Positions 6,567 to 62,128 of a DNA stretch of 64,000 nucleotides are shown piece after piece. The stretch spans positions 62,001 through 126,000 of the forward strand of contig LRSL01000069.1 of NCBI GenBank assembly GCA_001563335.1. The letters run 5' to 3'. Position 1 is the stretch's first letter. Every line of letters starts with the position of its first letter. The notes beneath the pieces are model-generated. The model was given only the letters and a program-made list of their open reading frames with translations, was not told the DNA's origin and did not search any database. Source of the DNA: Candidatus Thorarchaeota archaeon SMTZ1-45. Its GTDB lineage: Archaea; Asgardarchaeota; Thorarchaeia; Thorarchaeales; Thorarchaeaceae. The position numbers and the translations under genes are program-made.

Positions 6567-8248
6567 TATTTCTTCACTCTCGCCTTTTTGTATTCAAGTG
6601 CAGCCCTTATTAGACCCAAGTAGAGTGGATGAGGATTGTCAGGTCGGGACTTGAACTCTGGATGATATTGAACACCAATCCAAAATGGATGATTAGTGAG
6701 CTCAATCGCATTGATTATTTTTCCAGTCGAATCAAAAGCTGAAACCTTGAGTCCTTTTTCATGCATCTTGTTCAAGTAACGATCAATCAAATGATATCTA
6801 TGTCTGAATCTTTCGTGTGTCTTGTCAGTCCCGTAGATTCTATGCAATTTTGTATCTTCTGCAATATGAACATCATGTCCACCAAGACGCATAGTTCCAC
6901 CCTTGTCCTCTGTAAGCTTCTGATCATCCATTAAATCAACAACAGGATATAGACTATCAATGTCTACTTCTGTAGTATGGGCTCCTTTCCAACCCATGAC
7001 GTTTCTCGCAAAGGCGACAATTGAGAGTTGTGCACCATAACAGATGCCTAAGAGTGGTATTTTGGATTTCAAAGTCACTGTAGCGGCGCAGATCATTCCT
7101 TCAACACCACGTTCCCCAAAACCAGGTGTAAGAAGAACTCCATCCACATCAGATAAGTCGCTAGTGAGACACTCTTCAGTACTTCGCTCTTCTGTTTCAA
7201 TCCATTTTATTGTAACTTTTGTACTACAAACAGCTGCAGCATGTGCTAATGCTTGATTGATACTTTTGTAAGAGTCACCAAGTGTAGTATATTTACCAGG
7301 CATGGCAATTGTTATTGTATCTGATGCTTCATCAAAAGACCGTACCATTTTTGACCAAGAGTCCGTATCAGGTCTTCTTGGTTCCAAACCAAAGTGTTCA
7401 ACAAGAATATTTCCGAGACCTTCTTCCTCGAATGACAACGGAAGTTGATAAATCACAGGAATATCTGGATTCGAGATGACCCTTTCTTTAGGGATATTAC
7501 AGAATAAAGCAATCTTCTCCTTTGCGGCGGCGGGGAGTCTTTTCTCTGCCCTGCAGATAGTGATATCAGGTTGGAGACCTAGGCTTTGGAGTGTTCTAAC
7601 GCTGTGTTGTGTTGGTTTGGTCTTGAACTCTCCTACAGATTTTATATAGGGTACAAGGGTGACATGAACAACAGCAGTACGATTTCGACCTAGTTCGCGT
7701 ACAAGTTGTCTTACGGCCTCAAGGAATGGCATAGCCTCAATGTCACCAACAGTACCACCTATCTCTACTAAGAGAATATCTGGAATTGAATCCTTTTTCA
7801 CAACATCCCAGATTCTTTGTTTGATTCTGTCTGTTATGTGTGGTATGATTTGAACTGTCCTTCCAAGGAATCCACCTTTACGCTCTTCAAGAATGACTGA
7901 AAGGTAGATTTGTCCTGACGTGATATTCTGAGATGGATGTACATTCATTCCAGTGAATCGCTCGTATGTCCCAAAATCCAGATCAATCTCAGATATATTG
8001 AATTCAGAGTCATTAACTGGACGGAATGTCCAAGTCTGGTCTGTTACAAAGACTTCCCCATGTTCAATAGGGTTCAAAGTGCCAGGGTCAATATTCAGAT
8101 ACGGATCAATCTTGATTATTCTGATGTTGTATCCTCGAAATTGAAATAATTTTGCAATTGAAGCAGTAGTAACTCCTTTTCCAATACCAGAGAGAACTCC
8201 GCCCGTTATGAACACAAAATTCGGTTTTTCTTGCATAGAATTCAACAT
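6566..8248 (-). CDS. pyrG: CTP synthase
   Basis: Makes CTP from UTP, ATP and glutamine. The amidoligase domain opens with 'FVFITGGVLSGIGKGVTTAS' and 'KIDPYLNIDPGTL'. The C-terminal class I glutamine amidotransferase carries the nucleophile motif 'PLLGICYGAQLS' and the His/Glu motif 'GVQYHPEF'. An ATG exists further upstream at 8305, but GAGGT lies five bases before the ATG at 8248 and the family usually starts close to the synthase motif. This gives about 560 residues. Its neighbours are DNA-repair genes, an operon partnership without obvious metabolic logic. Confidence 0.95.
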   Translation of the reverse strand: MLNSMQEKPNFVFITGGVLSGIGKGVTTASIAKLFQFRGYNIRIIKIDPYLNIDPGTLNPIEHGEVFVTDQTWTFRPVNDSEFNISEIDLDFGTYERFTGMNVHPSQNITSGQIYLSVILEERKGGFLGRTVQIIPHITDRIKQRIWDVVKKDSIPDILLVEIGGTVGDIEAMPFLEAVRQLVRELGRNRTAVVHVTLVPYIKSVGEFKTKPTQHSVRTLQSLGLQPDITICRAEKRLPAAAKEKIALFCNIPKERVISNPDIPVIYQLPLSFEEEGLGNILVEHFGLEPRRPDTDSWSKMVRSFDEASDTITIAMPGKYTTLGDSYKSINQALAHAAAVCSTKVTIKWIETEERSTEECLTSDLSDVDGVLLTPGFGERGVEGMICAATVTLKSKIPLLGICYGAQLSIVAFARNVMGWKGAHTTEVDIDSLYPVVDLMDDQKLTEDKGGTMRLGGHDVHIAEDTKLHRIYGTDKTHERFRHRYHLIDRYLNKMHEKGLKVSAFDSTGKIINAIELTNHPFWIGVQYHPEFKSRPDNPHPLYLGLIRAALEYKKARVKK

Positions 8249-16923: not shown

Positions 16924-16935
16924 GAACACGTGTTC
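16924..16935. promoter_or_regulatory. GAACACGTGTTC palindrome upstream of the deacetylase gene
   Basis: A perfect 12-base palindrome, 97 bases before the start of the deacetylase-like gene. The same or near-identical sequence occurs four times at 50.5-51.2 kb. It is probably an operator for a dimeric DNA-binding protein; the protein is unknown. Confidence 0.5.
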
Positions 16936-26287: not shown

Positions 26288-26572
26288 TCATGACTCCCAG
26301 AGATTGAATAAACTTCTTAGTGAGCGTGCCCTAAGGTCTTCGATTTTGTATCGATATATTTTGATTCTACCAAATTTCTTCTCCTCTATGAGACCTGAGT
26401 TTAGTAACACTTCAAGATGTGATTTTGTAGAACTATGATTGAGGTCTACTCTTCTACAAAGCTCTGAGATATTTAACTCGTTAGAAACAGCAAGTTCCTT
26501 GAGTATCTTTATTCTTCCTCGTGATGAGAATATGTCTTCAATGGCAATTTTATGCGAATTTTCAGAATCCAT
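26288..26572 (-). CDS. Winged helix-turn-helix regulator coupled to orc1/cdc6
   Basis: A 94-residue winged-helix protein: 'SRGRIKILKELAVSNELNIS', 'ELCRRVDLNHSSTKSHLEVL' (recognition helix) and a wing 'GLIEEKKFGRIKIYRY'. Its ATG overlaps the orc1/cdc6 stop by one base (TAATG), so the two are translationally coupled. It may control this operon or act with Orc1 at DNA; both are inferences from position. Confidence 0.8.
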   Translation of the reverse strand: MDSENSHKIAIEDIFSSRGRIKILKELAVSNELNISELCRRVDLNHSSTKSHLEVLLNSGLIEEKKFGRIKIYRYKIEDLRARSLRSLFNLWES

Positions 26573-27789
26573 TATTTTCTCATAGCCTCCTTGGATGTAT
26601 CGAGCAATCCCGAGAGAAATTGTTCCAACATCTCAGCTGGAACCTCAGAGAACCCAATAAGAGTGGTCTGACCTCTCTGGCCTGTCCCGGATTTCTTCGT
26701 ATCTATGATACCATGTGAATGGAGATCTTGAACCCATTCCCAAATTTGGGTATGTGCCCGTGGTTCTTGGTAATATTCTTCACATATTGAACGATACATG
26801 TCTTCAACTTCACCAATTGTAACATACGCACCACGAATCTCTCTAAGTTGCCTTGCTGCGGCTAATAACAGAAGTTTATGTTGAATAGGTAGTGTAGCAA
26901 AAATTTCCTTTCTGAGCTCAGGATGAGTATCAGCTTTGGCACGACGTGCATAATCAGGTATTACAATATCTGTTTGGTCGCTATCAGCGCATTTACCTGC
27001 GCGCCATAGGAGCTCTATGGCATAGCGTGCATCACCGTGTTCAGAAGCAATATCACAGATGACTTGGATTGTTTCATCCATTACAGCTTTCTTCTCAAAG
27101 GCCATTTCTACACGATCTCGGAGTATATCATAAAGCGCATCACGATTATATCTTGAAAAACGAAGGATATTGCGCTGAAGTGTACTACGTGTGCTAGAAT
27201 CAAGAATATCATCATCAAGAGGGATTTTGCGACCAATTCCTATAATTGAGAGTCGCTGAGTCGCATTTAATCTGTCATCCATAAGACGTGTAAGATCATA
27301 TAAAATGTCAGCACCTCTTTGTCTGATGAAATAATCAAGTTCATCCAGAATTAGGAGAAGATAGCGGTCCTCTTCATCGAGAACTTCGACTAGCATTTGA
27401 AGCAGTTCATCAGGAGAATGTCCACGCCTAGGAAATTTTGGTTTAAACTCTCTCAGTACTCGAAGAAAGACCAAGTATGATGTCTTATTAACACGGCAAT
27501 TAATGTGAATGTTATGAAGTCTGATATTCCTTCTTTTTGCAGCTTGAATCATCTGTTCAGAGAATCTTTTAGCTACAGCTGTCTTTCCTGTACCTACTGG
27601 TCCTTCAATGATGAATCTATTACTCGTGCGACCTGGTGAACTGATTAGAGTCTTGAAACTTTGAACAAGTGTCCGAATTTCTGATTGACGATGAGGAAGG
27701 CTTTCTGGTACATAATCAATTGATAAGAACTGTTCTGATTTGAATACGCTACGTCTACTGAGTTCATCTTCAACATAATCATGAGGCAT
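26572..27789 (-). CDS. cdc6: Orc1/Cdc6 origin-recognition ATPase
   Basis: A 405-residue archaeal Orc1/Cdc6. Walker A 'IEGPVGTGKTAVAKRFSEQM' (about residue 64), Walker B 'RYLLLILDELDYFIRQ', sensor 1 'SIIGIGRKIP', sensor 2 region 'EHGDARYAIELLWRAGKCA', and a C-terminal winged helix after about 290. It should bind ORB repeats at replication origins and recruit MCM. ORB-like elements are visible 24 kb away at 50.96 and 51.11 kb, but none was seen next to this gene. It leads a two-gene operon with a small HTH protein. Confidence 0.95.
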   Translation of the reverse strand: MPHDYVEDELSRRSVFKSEQFLSIDYVPESLPHRQSEIRTLVQSFKTLISSPGRTSNRFIIEGPVGTGKTAVAKRFSEQMIQAAKRRNIRLHNIHINCRVNKTSYLVFLRVLREFKPKFPRRGHSPDELLQMLVEVLDEEDRYLLLILDELDYFIRQRGADILYDLTRLMDDRLNATQRLSIIGIGRKIPLDDDILDSSTRSTLQRNILRFSRYNRDALYDILRDRVEMAFEKKAVMDETIQVICDIASEHGDARYAIELLWRAGKCADSDQTDIVIPDYARRAKADTHPELRKEIFATLPIQHKLLLLAAARQLREIRGAYVTIGEVEDMYRSICEEYYQEPRAHTQIWEWVQDLHSHGIIDTKKSGTGQRGQTTLIGFSEVPAEMLEQFLSGLLDTSKEAMRK

Positions 27790-37151: not shown

Positions 37152-40100
37152 ATGCCATTTCAAACAACCCAACTAGAAGAAACAGGACTAGTTCCTCATG
37201 ATTTATTCAGAAAACAAAAATCATGGTTGAGCATAATTTGGATCATTGGAACCTTTTTTTCTGGAATCTATTTGTTTTTTGTTTATATCCTACCATTGAG
37301 TGGACTGATTAATACTCCTTTTATTCCATTCAAGACATTGGTTGAAATGGCTATCTGCTTAATTCCTATTTTTTTTGGATTATCACTTGCTATGAGAAAG
37401 ATTCGTATTCAGATTCCTTTGGTTTATGTTGAGAATAATACATTACTAGTTCACCTGGATACCTATATGATTGGAACATGTTGTCTTGATGTTGTATCAG
37501 TATCTGGTTCAGTTTATCTTGATGATAATGGAAAACCGAGGTACATTGATAGTATGCTATTGGCTATGCGCGCAGGAATGAGTAAATCAGTTACTATGGC
37601 TTTTGAGGTAGGAGTATCAAATGGTGAACCATTCTTACGATTTTTCGTAACTACATCTGGCTATAACTCAGGAGAAATTCATGATATTCTAAGAAGAGAA
37701 GCTACTAGGATAGAAGCGATTCTTTTGTCATCTCTAAAAAATGTGGAGCTGAAACTTCTAGAGGGGGAGTCATTACGAGATTGTGCTTTGGTTCATATTG
37801 AGGAAGTAAATATTGAATCTGAAAAGTTAGTTATCAAAGATAATATTGGATTAGTAGGTTTAATGGGATTACAAGGTTTACCTCGAGTATTTCCTACTCA
37901 GGAAGCTACTCAAGTAGGGACTTTTATTTCAACAGCACTTAGACAAGGATATTCAACAAGTATGACCTGCGTGTTTTCTGCTGCTAAACCTGGAAAAGAA
38001 AAACGTTTGCTTGAGAATCAATGGAAAAATATTCAGACAAAAGAGAAACGAAAAGAGGAATCGCTTCAGGAGTTTGCAACGAAGAAGAAATTACTGGTGC
38101 GTTATGAAGAAATTCAGGATAAAGCAGGTTGGTTTGATGTTACTGTGTATTTTAAAATTCGAGCACCATCTAGAAATCAGATTAATGCTTATTTGGATAT
38201 AATTAGCGGTCTTGTTCATTCAATATGGGGTGGCGATGATTCTATCAAGCTTACTCGTCAAAGAATATCAAAGCGGACTATATTTAGGATATTAACTCGA
38301 CGACATTTGAAACGTCAACGTTTACATATAGCTCGATTATCATCTTTTATTAACACACCAATTCAACAGTTACCTGTCATCACTCCAAAACAGACTCCAA
38401 TATTTTCAGTTCCTCCAAGGAGATTGATAGATAATGAGCTCGTTATTGGTGAGACAGTCTTTGGTGGTCGACATTTATCTAAAGTGGGATTAGAAGTTAA
38501 TTGGTTAAGAGATCATGTTGCAATCTTAGGGGCAACTGGAACTGGAAAAACAACAGTTGTCAAGCATCTTATGAGTCAATTGAGTATGAAAACAGATGTA
38601 TCTTGGTGGATTTTTGATCTCAAGGGTTCTGAATACCTTGATCTTGCTGGTTATGATGAGTCGAATATTCTTGTTCTTAGACCAGGCTTTGATACTTCTT
38701 TTGTGATTAATCTCATTGATGATGAAATGGCAAATGATGAGAATTATGCACATTCTACATTTGTGATATTACGAGAACTATTGAATGAAAGAGGTGATTC
38801 ATCTGAACTTTCTCCAGCAATGGAAAAATTACTTTGGGATTCTATAATGAGAATGGTGGATTCACTCAATCAAGGGAATTCAGTTCAGTTTTTAGTTGAG
38901 ATAGTATCAGAACTGGCAGGTAATGATCGTATAGGAAATATGACTAGAGATGCTTTACTCAATCGTCTTGAAATACTAATTCGTGAACCGCTAGGTACCA
39001 TACTTGGAGGTGGATCTGCAACAGTTCGATTTTCAGACCTGTTAAATAAACGTGTCATCTTTGATCTTTCATACGTTGCACGAATAGGAGGAATGGATTC
39101 TGCTCGGCTCCTCTACAATCTTGTCGCTAAGCGTATTTTTGATAGCGCAATGAAACGAGGTATCACAGAGGGATTGCATCATGTTGTTGTGTTAGAAGAA
39201 GCGAGTAATCTTGTACCAGAGAGCTATACAAGACACTCTGCTGCAGATGTGACAACTGGAGAATCTATGGTTATGTTGCAACGGGCTACTGGACAAGGTG
39301 TTATTGTGATATCAACCAGGCCGAATATATCCTCTAATATTCTAGCAAATACTTCAACAAAGATTGTATTTCGTTTACCATATGACAGCCAAATTGGTGG
39401 AAGATTTCTCTCTTTAAATGATGATCAGGAGCAGTATCTTAAGATGTTGAAACGGGGAAGAGCATTGATGAGTGTCCCTCACACTGAAACTTTTGAGATT
39501 GTCACAGAGCCATTTCATGGGTCTTTGATACAAAAGGATGAAACTATTCTATCTGAAAAAGAGCTGATTCATAGTATTGCAAAATCTACATCGAAAAAGA
39601 AAGAGGATTTGGGTGTACAAGATATATCTGAACCAGACAAAGATGTTAAGGAGCAGACACTTGTCTTTAATAGGCTCGATAGACTTGGGAGTCATGTCGT
39701 TGCATTTTTGGCCTCTGAAGAATGGGCAACCGAGGAGGAAATTCGTAATCTTCTTGCAGTTTTAGATTCCAATGTTGTAGATGATGATATATCAGAAGTA
39801 ATTCGCAATCTTGTATCATTAGGCAGTATAGAAAGAGAAGCCTTATCACTAGTCGATGGAGGATTTGTGTTTGCTCTTCCAGGAAAAGCCTTGAATGCTG
39901 TTAAACATGTGATTATTGAATATATATCTAAAAGACTTGGAATGGAATTCAATCCTTCTGCTATTTCTGAAAATCCGAATTGGCCAGATATTGTTCTTGA
40001 AGATAGAGCTTTGGTAATAATTCCTGAGCATCTGAGAGTATCATCATTGGAATTAACATTAGAAAAAATACGAAAACAAATGGGCAAGCTTCAGAATGGT

Positions 40101-40940
40101 GTAAGTGAGCTCATTGTTGTTGTCAGAGGAAGTGTAGCTGCTGCAAAGTTGAGAGAATTAATGGATTCATCAGAGGAGTTTAATGATGTTTGCGTTGTTT
40201 CAGCGTTTCCGAGGTCACTTGATTCTGTGATTGAAGGGTTAACTCATGAAGTTGATTTATCTAAAGAACCTTCGATTCAAACAAAACTAACTGATGATGC
40301 AGATTTGAATGGAGAAGTTGGTTTGATTGGTGCTATACATGATGTAGGATCCGCAACAAATCGAGCTATTCAGATTCGATTATGGTTTGGGCTTATTCAG
40401 GATTTAGTGGACATATCTAATGGTCAAGTTAGATGGGAGGAATTGTTGGAGTTCATTGAAACTACAGCTTTGCAATCATTAAAAGGTAGAACAGCTCCAT
40501 TGAGTATTGAAGAGGGTAAACGGGCTCTAACAGAACTTCTAGCTGATGAAGTTCTAATTGCATTACGTGTTAATGAAGAGTCTGAATTTGTAGAGCTTTC
40601 AAAAGGTCTCTGGTTGGTAAATTCGTCAGTTCTAAAAAGTTTGAAAGAAAAGGCAATTGTGAGTCTAGAGGAAGATCTGAAGAAATACCACTCTGAGGTG
40701 AAAAGAAATCATGGATATTATGATCTTTGTGTTAGTAATGCATCTTATGTCATATTTCCGAATCAACAACAATTGAATACGCTTTTGCATCTACATAGTG
40801 ATATCGCATGTAGGATGTGTAAATCGACAAAAGTTGTGTGTGTTTTAACTGCAGCAGAATATTTGGAGGAAAGTGTGACAACACCAAGTAATCTGATTAT
40901 CAAGACCATTGATGATAGAATATCAGCTTTTGCGACTTAA
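37152..40940 (+). CDS. Large membrane-anchored VirB4/HerA-type ATPase
   Basis: A 1262-residue protein. Two transmembrane helices at about residues 24-46 and 60-80, a poorly recognised alpha/beta region to about 430, then a HerA/VirB4-like ATPase domain: Walker A 'ILGATGTGKTTVVKHLMSQL' (about 458) and Walker B 'HHVVVLEEASNLVPE' (about 677), with 'VISTRPNISSNILANTST' as the sensor segment. The C-terminal about 450 residues contain winged-helix-like and unknown segments. Architecture resembles the ATPases of conjugation and of the archaeal Ced DNA-import system, but is about twice their length. ATG has GAGGATG upstream. Confidence 0.8.
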   Translation: MPFQTTQLEETGLVPHDLFRKQKSWLSIIWIIGTFFSGIYLFFVYILPLSGLINTPFIPFKTLVEMAICLIPIFFGLSLAMRKIRIQIPLVYVENNTLLVHLDTYMIGTCCLDVVSVSGSVYLDDNGKPRYIDSMLLAMRAGMSKSVTMAFEVGVSNGEPFLRFFVTTSGYNSGEIHDILRREATRIEAILLSSLKNVELKLLEGESLRDCALVHIEEVNIESEKLVIKDNIGLVGLMGLQGLPRVFPTQEATQVGTFISTALRQGYSTSMTCVFSAAKPGKEKRLLENQWKNIQTKEKRKEESLQEFATKKKLLVRYEEIQDKAGWFDVTVYFKIRAPSRNQINAYLDIISGLVHSIWGGDDSIKLTRQRISKRTIFRILTRRHLKRQRLHIARLSSFINTPIQQLPVITPKQTPIFSVPPRRLIDNELVIGETVFGGRHLSKVGLEVNWLRDHVAILGATGTGKTTVVKHLMSQLSMKTDVSWWIFDLKGSEYLDLAGYDESNILVLRPGFDTSFVINLIDDEMANDENYAHSTFVILRELLNERGDSSELSPAMEKLLWDSIMRMVDSLNQGNSVQFLVEIVSELAGNDRIGNMTRDALLNRLEILIREPLGTILGGGSATVRFSDLLNKRVIFDLSYVARIGGMDSARLLYNLVAKRIFDSAMKRGITEGLHHVVVLEEASNLVPESYTRHSAADVTTGESMVMLQRATGQGVIVISTRPNISSNILANTSTKIVFRLPYDSQIGGRFLSLNDDQEQYLKMLKRGRALMSVPHTETFEIVTEPFHGSLIQKDETILSEKELIHSIAKSTSKKKEDLGVQDISEPDKDVKEQTLVFNRLDRLGSHVVAFLASEEWATEEEIRNLLAVLDSNVVDDDISEVIRNLVSLGSIEREALSLVDGGFVFALPGKALNAVKHVIIEYISKRLGMEFNPSAISENPNWPDIVLEDRALVIIPEHLRVSSLELTLEKIRKQMGKLQNGVSELIVVVRGSVAAAKLRELMDSSEEFNDVCVVSAFPRSLDSVIEGLTHEVDLSKEPSIQTKLTDDADLNGEVGLIGAIHDVGSATNRAIQIRLWFGLIQDLVDISNGQVRWEELLEFIETTALQSLKGRTAPLSIEEGKRALTELLADEVLIALRVNEESEFVELSKGLWLVNSSVLKSLKEKAIVSLEEDLKKYHSEVKRNHGYYDLCVSNASYVIFPNQQQLNTLLHLHSDIACRMCKSTKVVCVLTAAEYLEESVTTPSNLIIKTIDDRISAFAT

Positions 40941-46682: not shown

Positions 46683-47160
46683 ATTCACACATCAATTGTG
46701 TGAATGGCGCCTTTATTGTGAATGGTCTGGGAGAAACAGACTTCTTATTGCTCTGATGAGGAAAAATAGATATTATATGTTTCATGATACCTGTGAATAG
46801 ACACACCCCTTCGTTTCCTGTGGAAATGGGTAAATAGACATATGGAATCCTTACATGTTCATTCACAAATAGGATAAATTAGTGAATGATAAAATGGCTG
46901 GAAAATATCTTTTATTTAATGAAAAAAGGGCTCATATTGCTTTTTTATGACAAAAAAGACTTTGAAGGACGTCAGCACAACAAAAACGAAACGGACGAAC
47001 TCTATATGTGTACAGACACACTATGTAGCTCTTATCTTGGTATACATAATTCACATACTCACACTTATTTGGGGTTGTAGTTATTTTGATTGTGAATACT
47101 AAAGAGGAGTAAATTTGTTTGAGCGGTGATGATAGAACTAACTATGTGTATGAATTCACA
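46683..47160. repeat. Cluster of ATTCACA/TGTGAAT repeats
   Basis: Between the nucleotidyltransferase gene and the gene at 47119 the heptamer ATTCACA or its complement occurs at 46683, 46699, 46717, 46792, 46861, 47049, 47091 and 47154. The first two form an inverted repeat ATTCACAC-n7-GTGTGAAT (46683-46705). The density is far above what base composition would give. Possible roles are iterons of an origin or an operator array controlling the downstream gene. The rest of this 470-base spacer is AT-rich with no convincing ORF. Confidence 0.65.
46802..46826 (-). other. ORB-like origin element
   Basis: The minus strand reads TTTCCACAGGAAACGAAGGG followed by GTGTG. It matches the archaeal origin-recognition-box pattern of a short dyad (TTTCC...GGAAA) followed by a G-string. 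It is embedded in the ATTCACA repeat cluster. No inverted partner was found nearby, so this may be a lone ORB or a secondary origin. Confidence 0.5.
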
Positions 47161-47748
47161 TACAGTTCAGCACCGGGTCTTCGTGAGATATTCCAATGTA
47201 AGTATGTCAAACCAAATGAAGCACTTAACAGGTTTAGAAAGATCTTGGCATTAACAGAGTCACCTTTTGATTTCAAGATAGTTGTATCTGATGAAACAAT
47301 GGGAGAAGAGTCTAGTTTTCAAGTGAAGGGTGGTAGTGTAGAAGAAATGTTTGTCAAATTCAAGGTCTTTCTCGAAACAAGCACTGGGTTCGTCTTTGAA
47401 CCAGTTAGTGAGGAAATTACAGAAGTTGGACTAGAGGATACTCGATTTGAATCAATGAGTAATTATGATAAAATGCAAGTGATAATATATGCATCGTTTA
47501 AACATGGCAAATTTTCTTCACTTGATGTTACTGAGATATATCAGGATTCATTCAATGAAGATCTTCCAAAAAGCACAGCATCTACATATCTTGCAAGAAT
47601 GTGGAATAATGGCAAGGGACATTTAGAGCGGTATGGAAATCGTTCAGGTTATACATATAGACTACGAACTGAAATTGCAGAGGTTCAAAAAGAAACTGAA
47701 AGAGCAGAGGAGCTTCTTGCTGCTATACAAATGCGTGTTCGTGATTAA
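47119..47748 (+). CDS. Uncharacterised protein with C-terminal winged-helix-like region
   Basis: A 209-residue protein of no recognised family. The N-terminal about 110 residues look alpha/beta ('TNYVYEFTYSSAPGLREIFQ', 'KILALTESPFDFKIVVSDE'). Residues about 115-185 resemble a winged helix ('MQVIIYASFKHGKFSSLDVT', 'PKSTASTYLARMWNNGKGHL', 'ERYGNRSGYTYRL'), suggesting DNA binding. A short charged coiled coil ends it. TTG start with GAGGAG eight bases upstream. The promoter region is full of ATTCACA repeats, the last one inside the gene, so it could be autoregulated or an iteron-binding initiator-like protein. Confidence 0.65.
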   Translation: MSGDDRTNYVYEFTYSSAPGLREIFQCKYVKPNEALNRFRKILALTESPFDFKIVVSDETMGEESSFQVKGGSVEEMFVKFKVFLETSTGFVFEPVSEEITEVGLEDTRFESMSNYDKMQVIIYASFKHGKFSSLDVTEIYQDSFNEDLPKSTASTYLARMWNNGKGHLERYGNRSGYTYRLRTEIAEVQKETERAEELLAAIQMRVRD

Positions 47749-50522: not shown

Positions 50523-50534
50523 GAACACGTGTTC
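50523..50534. promoter_or_regulatory. GAACACGTGTTC palindrome, copy 1
   Basis: Perfect 12-base palindrome (14 with flanking A/T), 19 bases before the ATG of the 95-residue gene at 50553. In that place it overlaps where RNA polymerase would start, as a repressor operator would. Confidence 0.55.
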
Positions 50535-50552: not shown

Positions 50553-50840
50553 ATGGCTTTGTATTTGTACTTGTATGACTGTCAGCATGCAAGAAGAACT
50601 AATGCTAGACGTGTTGCTTTCACTAAGGAGCTTTATGGATATTTTTACTCTTGGAAAACAAAATCAGGAATCAGGCAAAAAAGAAAACCAGGTCTTTTAG
50701 AAGAATGTCCTGGTGCAGAGGCTGTTGCAGATTCAGCTATTCTTGTTCCTTCTGAATATCGTTCTATTTTTGATATACTCTTTAAAATGTATGAGGATAT
50801 TCTCAAATTGAGGATCTATGAAGTTGTTCAAGAATTATAG
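50553..50840 (+). CDS. Uncharacterised small protein flanked by palindromic sites
   Basis: A 95-residue protein of unknown family. It is basic in the middle ('ARRTNARRVAFTKELYGYFY', 'KTKSGIRQKRKPGLLEECPG') and helical and acidic/hydrophobic at the end ('YRSIFDILFKMYEDILKLRI'). The composition has the look of a folded, conserved small protein with possible nucleic-acid contact. GAACAYGTGTTC sites lie 19 bases upstream of its start and 13 bases beyond its stop. It could be the regulator of these sites or a product controlled by them. An overlapping frame at 50485-50700 is less protein-like. Confidence 0.6.
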   Translation: MALYLYLYDCQHARRTNARRVAFTKELYGYFYSWKTKSGIRQKRKPGLLEECPGAEAVADSAILVPSEYRSIFDILFKMYEDILKLRIYEVVQEL

Positions 50841-50853
50841 GAATAAATATTTA

Positions 50854-50865
50854 GAACATGTGTTC
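50854..50865. promoter_or_regulatory. GAACATGTGTTC near-palindrome, copy 2
   Basis: Same motif with one central change, 13 bases after the stop codon of the small gene. It is the left-most copy of the group around the candidate origin. Confidence 0.5.
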
Positions 50866-50935: not shown

Positions 50936-50947
50936 GAACATGTGTTC
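50936..50947. promoter_or_regulatory. GAACATGTGTTC near-palindrome, copy 3
   Basis: Identical to copy 2 and only 12 bases from the left ORB-like element. This closeness suggests a protein bound here could touch or compete with Orc1/Cdc6. Confidence 0.5.
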
Positions 50948-50959
50948 TAAAATCAATTG

Positions 50960-51126
50960 GACCCCCTTGTTTCCACTAGAGATTATTACTAGCTATCTAA
51001 TCGTTTAAATATCAAAAAATATATATAATCGTTTTAGAAGCTGTTTTTATCTCCATTTTTTTAACATAAAATAATACCCGCTGAAACCATTCTCCATAAG
51101 ATCTTTCTAGTGGAAATGAAGGGGTC
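50960..51126. other. Candidate replication origin: inverted ORB-like pair with AT-rich centre
   Basis: On the minus strand at 50980-50960 and on the plus strand at 51106-51126 the same 21-base element occurs in opposite orientation (18 of 21 identical). Its core is AGTGGAAACAAGGGGG on the left and AGTGGAAATGAAGGGG on the right. This fits the archaeal ORB consensus, a dyad plus G-string, with G-strings pointing outward. Between them lie about 125 bases of very AT-rich DNA (long A/T runs around 51000-51075, direct repeat TAATCGTTT at about 51000 and 51028), a plausible unwinding element. Orc1/Cdc6 is encoded 24 kb away. Confidence 0.66.
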
Positions 51127-51181: not shown

Positions 51182-51193
51182 GAACACGTGTTC
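51182..51193. promoter_or_regulatory. GAACACGTGTTC palindrome, copy 4
   Basis: Perfect palindrome about 90 bases upstream of iorA and 56 bases beyond the right ORB-like element. Copies 3 and 4 therefore bracket the candidate origin. Confidence 0.55.
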
Positions 51194-51280: not shown

Positions 51281-53182
51281 ATGACAAAATCCAAGGAACT
51301 TCTTGAAGATCAACCAGGAAAAGAAATTCTTCTCCTAGCAAATGAAGCAATTGCACGAGGTGTTTTAGAAGCTGGTGTTAGAATAGTAGCTCTTTATCCT
51401 GGTACACCAAGTAGTGAAATTGGAAATAACCTTACATTTATGGCACCGCATATTCCAAATTTCTATTTTGAATTCAGTACAAATGAAAAAGTTGCATTAG
51501 AAGTAGCTGGTGCAGCTGCTGTTGCTGGCGTAAGATCTATGATGGTATGCAAAGGTCCTGGTCTCAATGTAGCTGCTGATCCATTCTTTTCTTTATCATA
51601 TGTTGGTGTTCGAGGAGGATTGGTAGTTGTCGTAGCAGATGACCCAAGTATGTGGAGCTCACAAAATGAGAATGACAGTAGATACTATGCACTAATGGGA
51701 AACATGCCAATGATGGAACCTGCTGATCCAATAGAAGCAAAATCTATGTTGCTTGAGGCTTACAAGCTTTCTGAAAAATTAGAGCTCCCAGTACTCTTCC
51801 GAACAACAACAAGAGTGAATCATACTCGAGCTCCAGTGAAATTTGGGAAAATTCTTCAACGTCCGAATAAAATTGAATTTGAAAAAGAACCATTTCGATT
51901 TGTTCCCATTCCTTCTGTTGCTCGAAAAAGACATCCATGGCTTCTTGGACAAATAGATATTGCACGTGAATTATCAGAAAAAAGCAAACTAAACTTTACA
52001 GAGGGTAAAGGTGATCTTGGGATAATCACTTCTGGAGTTTCATATAACTATGTCATTGAAGCACTATTAATCATGAAAATAAAAGCAGAAGTCTTGAAAC
52101 TTGGAATCACACATCCAGTCCCTGAAAAAATGATTATAGATTTTCTTAGTCGTCATAAACAGGTTATGATTGTTGAAGAGTTGGAACCATTTTTAGAAAC
52201 ACATGCAAGACGTCTAGCACAACTGAACAAAGTCAATGTAGAAATCATCGGAAAGGAACAAGGAATATTCTCACGCACTTACGAGTATAGTCCTCGAATT
52301 GTCATGAATGCTTTAAATAAAATTACTACACGTAATACACCTATTAATTGGGAAGAAATCGATAAGAAAACCCAAGAATTACCAGAGCTACCTCCAAGAC
52401 CTCCACTTCTATGCGCTGGGTGTCCACATAGAGCAACTTACTATGCGATTAGAACTGCCACAAGAGGAAAAGCTATCTATCCTTCTGATATTGGCTGTTA
52501 CACATTAAGCATTTCTTCTCCACTAGAAACTGCAGACATACTATTTGACATGGGATCTTCAATAACTACTGCTTGTGGTCTTGCAGAGGTTACAGATCAA
52601 GATATAGTTGCTTCAATCGGTGATAGTACATTCTTTGCTTCTGGTCTACCAGGTATTACAAATGCAGTTTATAATCAGCATCGAATCTGTGTTGTTGTAC
52701 TTGATAACCGTACTACTGCAATGACTGGTCATCAACCTCACCCTGGTACTGGAGTGACTGGTATGCAAAAGGAAGTTCCACCATTGGATATCGAAGAAGT
52801 ATGTAAGGGGCTTGGTGTTAAGTATGTCAAGACAGTTGAACCATTTGAGTCAATGGCAAGTTTGGTTGCAGAGGTACGTGAGATGGTCAAATGGACCAGA
52901 GAGAATCATAGTCCTGCAGTCTTAATATCAAAAGAACCGTGTGCTCTTCTTACTGCTGCTGAACGCCAACGTGCAGGTGAATTTCCACCCAAGTACTATG
53001 TCGACTCAGAGATCTGTAATGCATGCAAGCGCTGCCTTAATCGCCTATCTTGTCCTGCTATGTATATGGATTCTGAAACAGAACAAGCAATAATTGATGA
53101 CACATTATGTAATCTTTGTGGAACTTGTGTTTCAGTATGTCCACAGGGAGCTATAAAACGGGAGGAAACCGTAAATGAATAG
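51281..53182 (+). CDS. iorA: Indolepyruvate:ferredoxin oxidoreductase alpha subunit
   Basis: About 633 residues. Oxidises aryl pyruvates from aromatic amino acids to aryl-acetyl-CoA with ferredoxin. 'VRIVALYPGTPSSEIG' opens the pyrimidine domain; 'LCAGCPHRATYYAIRTA' and 'GDSTFFASGLPGITNAVYNQ' carry TPP-binding residues; the C-terminus has two 4Fe-4S motifs ('CNACKRCLNRLSCP', 'CNLCGTCVSVCPQGAI'). An ATG occurs at 51266, but GGAGGATC lies seven bases before ATG 51281, which is preferred. It overlaps iorB by eight bases. Confidence 0.95.
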   Translation: MTKSKELLEDQPGKEILLLANEAIARGVLEAGVRIVALYPGTPSSEIGNNLTFMAPHIPNFYFEFSTNEKVALEVAGAAAVAGVRSMMVCKGPGLNVAADPFFSLSYVGVRGGLVVVVADDPSMWSSQNENDSRYYALMGNMPMMEPADPIEAKSMLLEAYKLSEKLELPVLFRTTTRVNHTRAPVKFGKILQRPNKIEFEKEPFRFVPIPSVARKRHPWLLGQIDIARELSEKSKLNFTEGKGDLGIITSGVSYNYVIEALLIMKIKAEVLKLGITHPVPEKMIIDFLSRHKQVMIVEELEPFLETHARRLAQLNKVNVEIIGKEQGIFSRTYEYSPRIVMNALNKITTRNTPINWEEIDKKTQELPELPPRPPLLCAGCPHRATYYAIRTATRGKAIYPSDIGCYTLSISSPLETADILFDMGSSITTACGLAEVTDQDIVASIGDSTFFASGLPGITNAVYNQHRICVVVLDNRTTAMTGHQPHPGTGVTGMQKEVPPLDIEEVCKGLGVKYVKTVEPFESMASLVAEVREMVKWTRENHSPAVLISKEPCALLTAAERQRAGEFPPKYYVDSEICNACKRCLNRLSCPAMYMDSETEQAIIDDTLCNLCGTCVSVCPQGAIKREETVNE

Positions 53183-61962: not shown

Positions 61963-62128
61963 AGATATGGTATCACAAGTACTTCATGTAATACAATTTT
62001 GAAACAATAGTTTCAGATATAAAATGTATGGTAAACTGCGCCATTCAGACACAACCTTTTTGAAGAGAATGAATAGGCTGGAAGTTCAACTCAAGATTAA
62101 ATATCACAAGTTATAGGAGTAACTTAGT

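Follow-up and report, generated by a model that had tools for sequence, protein, structure and literature searches.

A conserved inverted ORB pair as the very likely main replication origin of Thorarchaeota

The described origins that most resemble the locus reported here come from three groups of archaea. In S. islandicus an ORB3-DUE-ORB2 unit has been defined in which each origin recognition box (ORB) is required, and the core motif of Sulfolobus oriC1, the 11-bp ucm to which UBP binds, is likewise essential (PMC12141716). The Methanomassiliicoccales (M. luminyensis and its relatives) carry a form of the box, GTTCCAGTGGAAATGG-AGGGGTA, one base shorter than the archaeal consensus CTTCCAGTGGAAACGAAAGGGGT (PMC4153887, Table 2); and haloarchaeal oriC1 places an AT-rich core between inverted G-string ORBs, an arrangement conserved across genomes (PMC4010727). 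Adjacency of the initiator gene is typical of characterised archaeal origins (PMC4010727). In the open-access literature that we searched, no replication origin has been described for any Asgard archaeon.

Our analysis concerns Candidatus Thorarchaeota archaeon SMTZ1-45 (assembly GCA_001563335.1), a 3.54-Mb Thorarchaeota bin which, like all of the data used here, is a MAG. The window, by which we mean the whole 64,000-nt stretch of DNA analysed, covers positions 62,001–126,000 of the 179-kb contig C69 (LRSL01000069.1). Within it lie two 21-nt arms, 18/21 (86%) complementary and with 125 nt in between, which read outwards as TCTAGTGGAAACAAGGGGGTC and TCTAGTGGAAATGAAGGGGTC (Table 1); since they match both the archaeal consensus and the Methanomassiliicoccales form (PMC4153887), we regard them as ORBs that are one base shorter. 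The 127 nt separating their 18-nt cores are 76% A+T, against ~63–64% in the surrounding DNA. The gene downstream of the pair is one that we take to be iorA of iorAB, the domains having been found and the name being our own reading of them.

Table 1. Coordinates of features at and around the ORB pair (window numbering, except where contig C69 is given)
Feature	Position	Strand	Remarks
Orc1/Cdc6 paralogue, 1FNN type	26572..27789	-	23.2 kb from pair; probably not this origin's initiator
Additional ATTCACA near ORB 3	46792-46798		conserved surroundings
ORB 3 (CCACAGGAAACGAAGGGG)	46806..46823	-	4.1 kb from pair; G-string outward
Inverted repeat ATTCAC...GTGAAT beside ORB 3	46861..46887	.	conserved (coordinates worked out by hand)
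Palindrome copy	50523..50534	.	immediately ahead of smORF95 start
smORF95, 95-aa conserved protein	50553..50840	+	not assigned to any named family; ORB-linked in several Asgard families
Palindrome copy	50854..50865	.	between smORF95 and ORB 1
Palindrome GAACATGTGTTC	50936..50947	.	edge 14 nt outside ORB 1
ORB 1	50960..50980 (18-nt core 50962-50979)	-	G-string directed away from core; fits published ORB consensus
AT-rich core, likely duplex-unwinding element	50981..51105	.	asymmetric, conserved (alignment of 31 loci)
TATA-like motif AAATATATATA	51017..51027	+	within core; family consensus AAgTATAaATA; left anchor of directional core
TATCTCCATTTT motif	51048..51059	+	single occurrence in 179-kb contig; sets core orientation
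ORB 2	51106..51126 (18-nt core 51107-51124)	+	inverted vs ORB 1; fits published ORB consensus
Palindrome GAACACGTGTTC	51182..51193	.	edge 57 nt outside ORB 2
iorA (indolepyruvate:ferredoxin oxidoreductase alpha)	51281..53182	+	fixed flank of origin
Orc1-1-type protein	C69:48847-49974		63 kb from pair, outside window

As in Sulfolobus/Saccharolobus oriC1, two inverted ORBs surround an AT-rich core of similar size that contains an asymmetric motif, and the genome encodes an Orc1-1-type initiator whose DNA-recognition residues match closely; unlike that origin, where the initiator gene is adjacent, the Thorarchaeota gene is 63 kb away, and GAACAYRTGTTC palindromes, a distal ORB at 4.1 kb and inversion of the core unit in some relatives also set the Thorarchaeota locus apart. 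With the Methanomassiliicoccales it shares the shorter box, inverted pairs and single unpaired ORBs elsewhere, but their pairs lie mostly beside orc1/cdc6, and palindromes and inversion go unreported in the relevant text of PMC4153887. Haloarchaeal oriC1 has the same general build but adjoins cdc6 and has other neighbouring elements (PMC4010727).

A search of the bin with CTAGTGGAAANNANGGGGTC, allowing ≤3 mismatches, returned seven matches. Four of these, with 0–1 mismatch, are the window pair and one equivalent pair on the 9,838-bp contig C115 (locus L008 of G000); the remaining single ORB-like matches have 3 mismatches and are unpaired. By a weight matrix trained on ORBs, these included, 0.0002 sites this good would be expected by chance per bin. 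The bin proves to be mixed: C115 belongs to a second Thorarchaeota species, grouping with another species, and has the same genes in the same order around the origin as C69, at 73–92% protein identity. As the only other good pair sits on this second-species contig, each genome in the bin has a single site of this kind. We considered the C115 pair as a second origin, and rejected this on account of its shared gene neighbourhood and different species.

Our comparison set comprises 31 Thorarchaeota loci, taken from relatives in which the site was present. In 31/31 a facing ORB pair, 141–150 nt from start to start, lies between smORF95 and iorA; pair, spacing and gene context are thus retained despite diverged intergenic DNA, and both the elements and their conservation are shown directly. 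An earlier note, made without database searches, had described an inverted ORB-like pair of 21-base elements (18 of 21 identical, G-strings outward, ~125 AT-rich nt between) in front of a metabolic operon, and both of these descriptions held, the operon being iorAB. Its claim that this is the layout of an archaeal replication origin is supported by the consensus match, by conservation and by the strand switch described below, firing not having been shown. The same note had suggested comparing the intergenic region in relatives, with the result just given, and allowed that the reading would fail were the 21-mer scattered at unrelated sites or the skew maximum to lie elsewhere: the bin has only this pair and its C115 homologue, and on C69 the switch falls on the pair.

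Strand composition was followed through GC skew at the third positions of genes, with a correction for the coding strand, over the full 179 kb of C69, approximately half of genome G036 and a quarter of G038. On C69 the extremum lies at contig position 112,000 (bootstrap 95% range 109,000–113,000), within 1 kb of the ORB pair at 112,960–113,126; the skew difference between fork-codirectional and head-on genes is -0.267, the maximum of 300 permutations being 0.154 (Mann-Whitney p 1.5e-16). A strand switch at the pair is therefore shown for this contig. The same sign of skew is seen in 23 of the 25 relatives whose retrieved stretch contained enough genes; codirectional genes are C-rich at third positions, opposite to the usual bacterial sign. 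In G038, a single-contig genome from another Asgard family, no position in the genome is, at the sampling given, a better switch point than the ORB pair, which lies beside an Orc1-1 gene. In G036, the only single-contig Thorarchaeota genome sampled (2.58 Mb), skew is weak and the extremum is not at the ORB site, where the value is -0.023 within 300 kb, with 6% of positions more negative.

The core itself is directional, running AAgTATAaATAgcTGTTT ... TTTATCTCCATTTTT, with a conserved motif of the form AAgTATAaATA ... TTTATCTCCATTTT (no base-by-base comparison with the 11-bp ucm was made). Relative to iorA it points one way in 19 of the 31 loci and the other way in 12, and reversing these 12 brings all of the loci into one clean alignment. 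In the window's own genus one form has the 14-nt palindrome gap towards smORF95, the opposite form towards iorA; as the palindrome gaps turn with the core, the inverted unit must take in both ORBs and the palindromes, the leader adjoining iorA (CCAATACCACAARACTGATACA) keeping its place as the unit inverts. On a tree of four linked proteins orientation needs at least four changes, three of them forced by well supported branches, so that the palindrome-ORB-core-ORB-palindrome unit is shown from its sequence to have inverted repeatedly in evolution, through at least 3–4 flips. Facing ORBs or palindromes could be natural substrates for such inversion, a mechanism that we have not shown. Retention of the intact unit in either orientation separates parts intrinsic to the origin from those belonging to neighbouring genes, and the parts so retained therefore outline the likely functional origin.

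Most Thorarchaeota genomes carry two Orc1 paralogues, and this paralogy is shown. The earlier note had placed orc1/cdc6 24 kb away; the distance held (23.2 kb) but refers to the wrong paralogue, the Orc1-1 type being the one at 63 kb. The protein encoded within the window is closest to P. aerophilum Cdc6 (1FNN, 8e-58), and was rejected as the partner initiator on phylogeny and PDB scores; the 63-kb protein matches Aeropyrum Orc1 (2V1U, 4e-97) and S. solfataricus Orc1-1 (2QBY_A, 7e-96), and in the recognition helix and wing its residues (LTQRRVSDLISELDMLG...SKGRYGRTKKI) agree closely with those of the latter (VTQRRVSDIINELDMVG...NRGRYGKTKEI). In seven genomes from six other Asgard families the ORB-bearing loci adjoin orc1, and all seven of the encoded proteins, orthologues of the Thorarchaeota protein at 63 kb, share one clade with it and with the Orc1-1 reference sequences (support 97/86). 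The separation of orc1-1 from the origin is 60–80 kb in Thorarchaeota, and greater in G019; this is most simply explained if orc1-1 adjoined the origin in the Asgard ancestor and the two moved apart in Thorarchaeota.

Some further observations concern these genes. Half sites resembling ORBs occur a short way upstream of the Orc1-1 gene (near 6700–6750 of locus L009, or C69 ~48,700, and at 862–893 of L189), possibly reflecting autoregulation or a relic of the ancestral gene-adjacent origin. Near-complete genomes of Asgard family f2 (e.g. G037, G046 and G053) have few or no canonical ORBs, and in G037 the Orc1-1-type protein is divergent and long-branched; a changed origin code is possible in this family. 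Between the window orc1 and the origin, at 37152–40940, is a gene, syntenic in relatives, whose 1,262-aa product has a HerA-type (DUF87) ATPase domain.

A third ORB lies beyond the AlaDH and SDH genes, and recurs at 4.1–4.2 kb in nearly all loci that extend far enough; in L052 it is at 5.6 kb and in L065, where gene order differs, at ~3.1 kb. Together with its adjacent ATTCAC...GTGAAT repeat and ATTCACA motif it makes up a conserved module (46756–46913). Next to it is a gene (47119–47748) for a 209-aa protein with no Pfam family, the C-terminal part of which weakly matches the CopY repressor (NCBIfam), and partial homologues occur near ORBs in four other Asgard loci (L082, L083, L084 and L088); the palindromes or the ATTCAC repeats are possible binding sites for this protein.

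Four copies of the 12-bp palindrome GAACAYRTGTTC fall within 680 bp at the window origin and four at the C115 homologue, these being among 21 near-matches across the bin. A copy is found ≤80 nt from at least one ORB in 29/31 loci, and in 22/31 exactly 13–14 nt separate its edge from the ORB at the TATA end of the core; at L087, from another Asgard family, tandem copies also adjoin an ORB. In the rest of the bin the palindrome is mostly upstream of assorted genes, and it is therefore likely to serve also as the operator of some regulator; a regulon sharing its site with the origin is a possibility. Copies of the GAACACGTGTTC form (window 16924–16935, loci L191–L200) are found near histone-deacetylase-like, ZIP transporter and GNAT acetyltransferase genes among others, again mostly upstream. 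A LexA-type repressor, suggested by a likeness to Gram-positive SOS boxes, was rejected as the binder, no LexA DNA-binding domain being present in the bin.

The neighbouring smORF95 matched no Pfam or NCBIfam family, and comparison with a viral library was uninformative. It is present in 49/148 of the phylum genomes searched, and its distance from an ORB is about 1 kb or less in seven genomes from other Asgard families; near other carriers, e.g. in family f13, no ORB was found. Its predicted model (pLDDT 93.8) has a ferredoxin-like fold with Cas2 the nearest among partial matches, these being weak by E-value (0.045–0.11) and high by probability.

Taken as a whole, we consider it very likely (probability roughly 0.88) that Thorarchaeota have their main chromosomal replication origin (oriC) at this site, one of the Orc1-1/ORB type; that it fires is inferred, without experimental proof, and the reading carries no marker-frequency, ChIP, footprint or plasmid-replication data. 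It meets the criteria of consensus ORBs, of inverted ORBs flanking an AT-rich region, of an Orc1-1-type initiator in the genome and of a strand switch (on C69 and G038, the site not being the extremum in G036). One criterion that is typical, but not strictly defining, remains unmet in Thorarchaeota, namely adjacency of the initiator gene (PMC4010727), and we therefore file the locus as a variant of the ORB-type origin. In the mechanism we propose, where binding and melting are again inferred, the distantly encoded Orc1-1-type initiator would bind the two facing ORBs, its directed binding helping to open the AT-rich core and to load MCM, with two forks then departing bidirectionally. The directional core motif may take the part of ucm in Sulfolobus, an equivalence that is inferred. 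The roles of the remaining elements are inferred also: ORB 3 may serve titration or timing by taking up additional Orc1-1, and the ORB-adjacent palindromes would probably bind a dimeric accessory protein.

The ORBs might alternatively bind Orc1/Cdc6 as a transcription regulator of smORF95, iorAB and the AlaDH-SDH pair, with no active origin present. Some archaeal Orc1 proteins do so act, haloarchaeal Orc1-2 among them (PMC9738581); the core contains a TATA-like motif; and the palindrome, found near such unrelated genes as those for the histone-deacetylase-like protein and the ZIP transporter, could be an ordinary operator. Against this, the strand-composition switch is located on the pair, other Asgards have the same boxes beside orc1 with different neighbours, and in several lineages the intact unit inverts with respect to both flanking genes, which is not expected of one neighbour's promoter. 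We thus find a purely regulatory role very hard to credit.

We think it similarly improbable that the site, though a genuine Orc1-1 origin, is minor or dormant, with another, perhaps driven by the second Orc1, doing most of the work. The presence of two paralogues in most Thorarchaeota genomes, the weak skew of G036 and the dormant origins known in Haloferax mediterranei (PMC4595724) speak for it; the strong local skew switch on C69 and the conservation of the whole module across the family speak against. The idea that the pair betrays an integrated element, a plasmid or virus carrying its own origin, has precedent, in that archaeal chromosomes have captured extrachromosomal origins (PMC4010727), but is practically ruled out by family-wide synteny between core metabolic genes and by the related neighbours (HypF, smORF95) found in other Asgard families.

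Beyond the main reading of the site as oriC, a bolder version would see an elaborated Asgard ORB origin, its directional unit invertible over evolution, with a dimeric factor on GAACAYRTGTTC and with smORF95, of Cas2-like fold, as a hitherto undescribed protein associated with the origin; the inversion and the smORF95-ORB linkage are shown by the sequence, the functions are not, and on balance we lean slightly against this version in full. Asgard archaea are relatives of the lineage that gave rise to eukaryotes, and ideas on how eukaryotes arose draw centrally on their replication machinery. What our analysis provides is a precise, conserved and testable Asgard origin with its likely initiator named, at which the palindromes, the distal ORB and smORF95 could be accessory origin factors.
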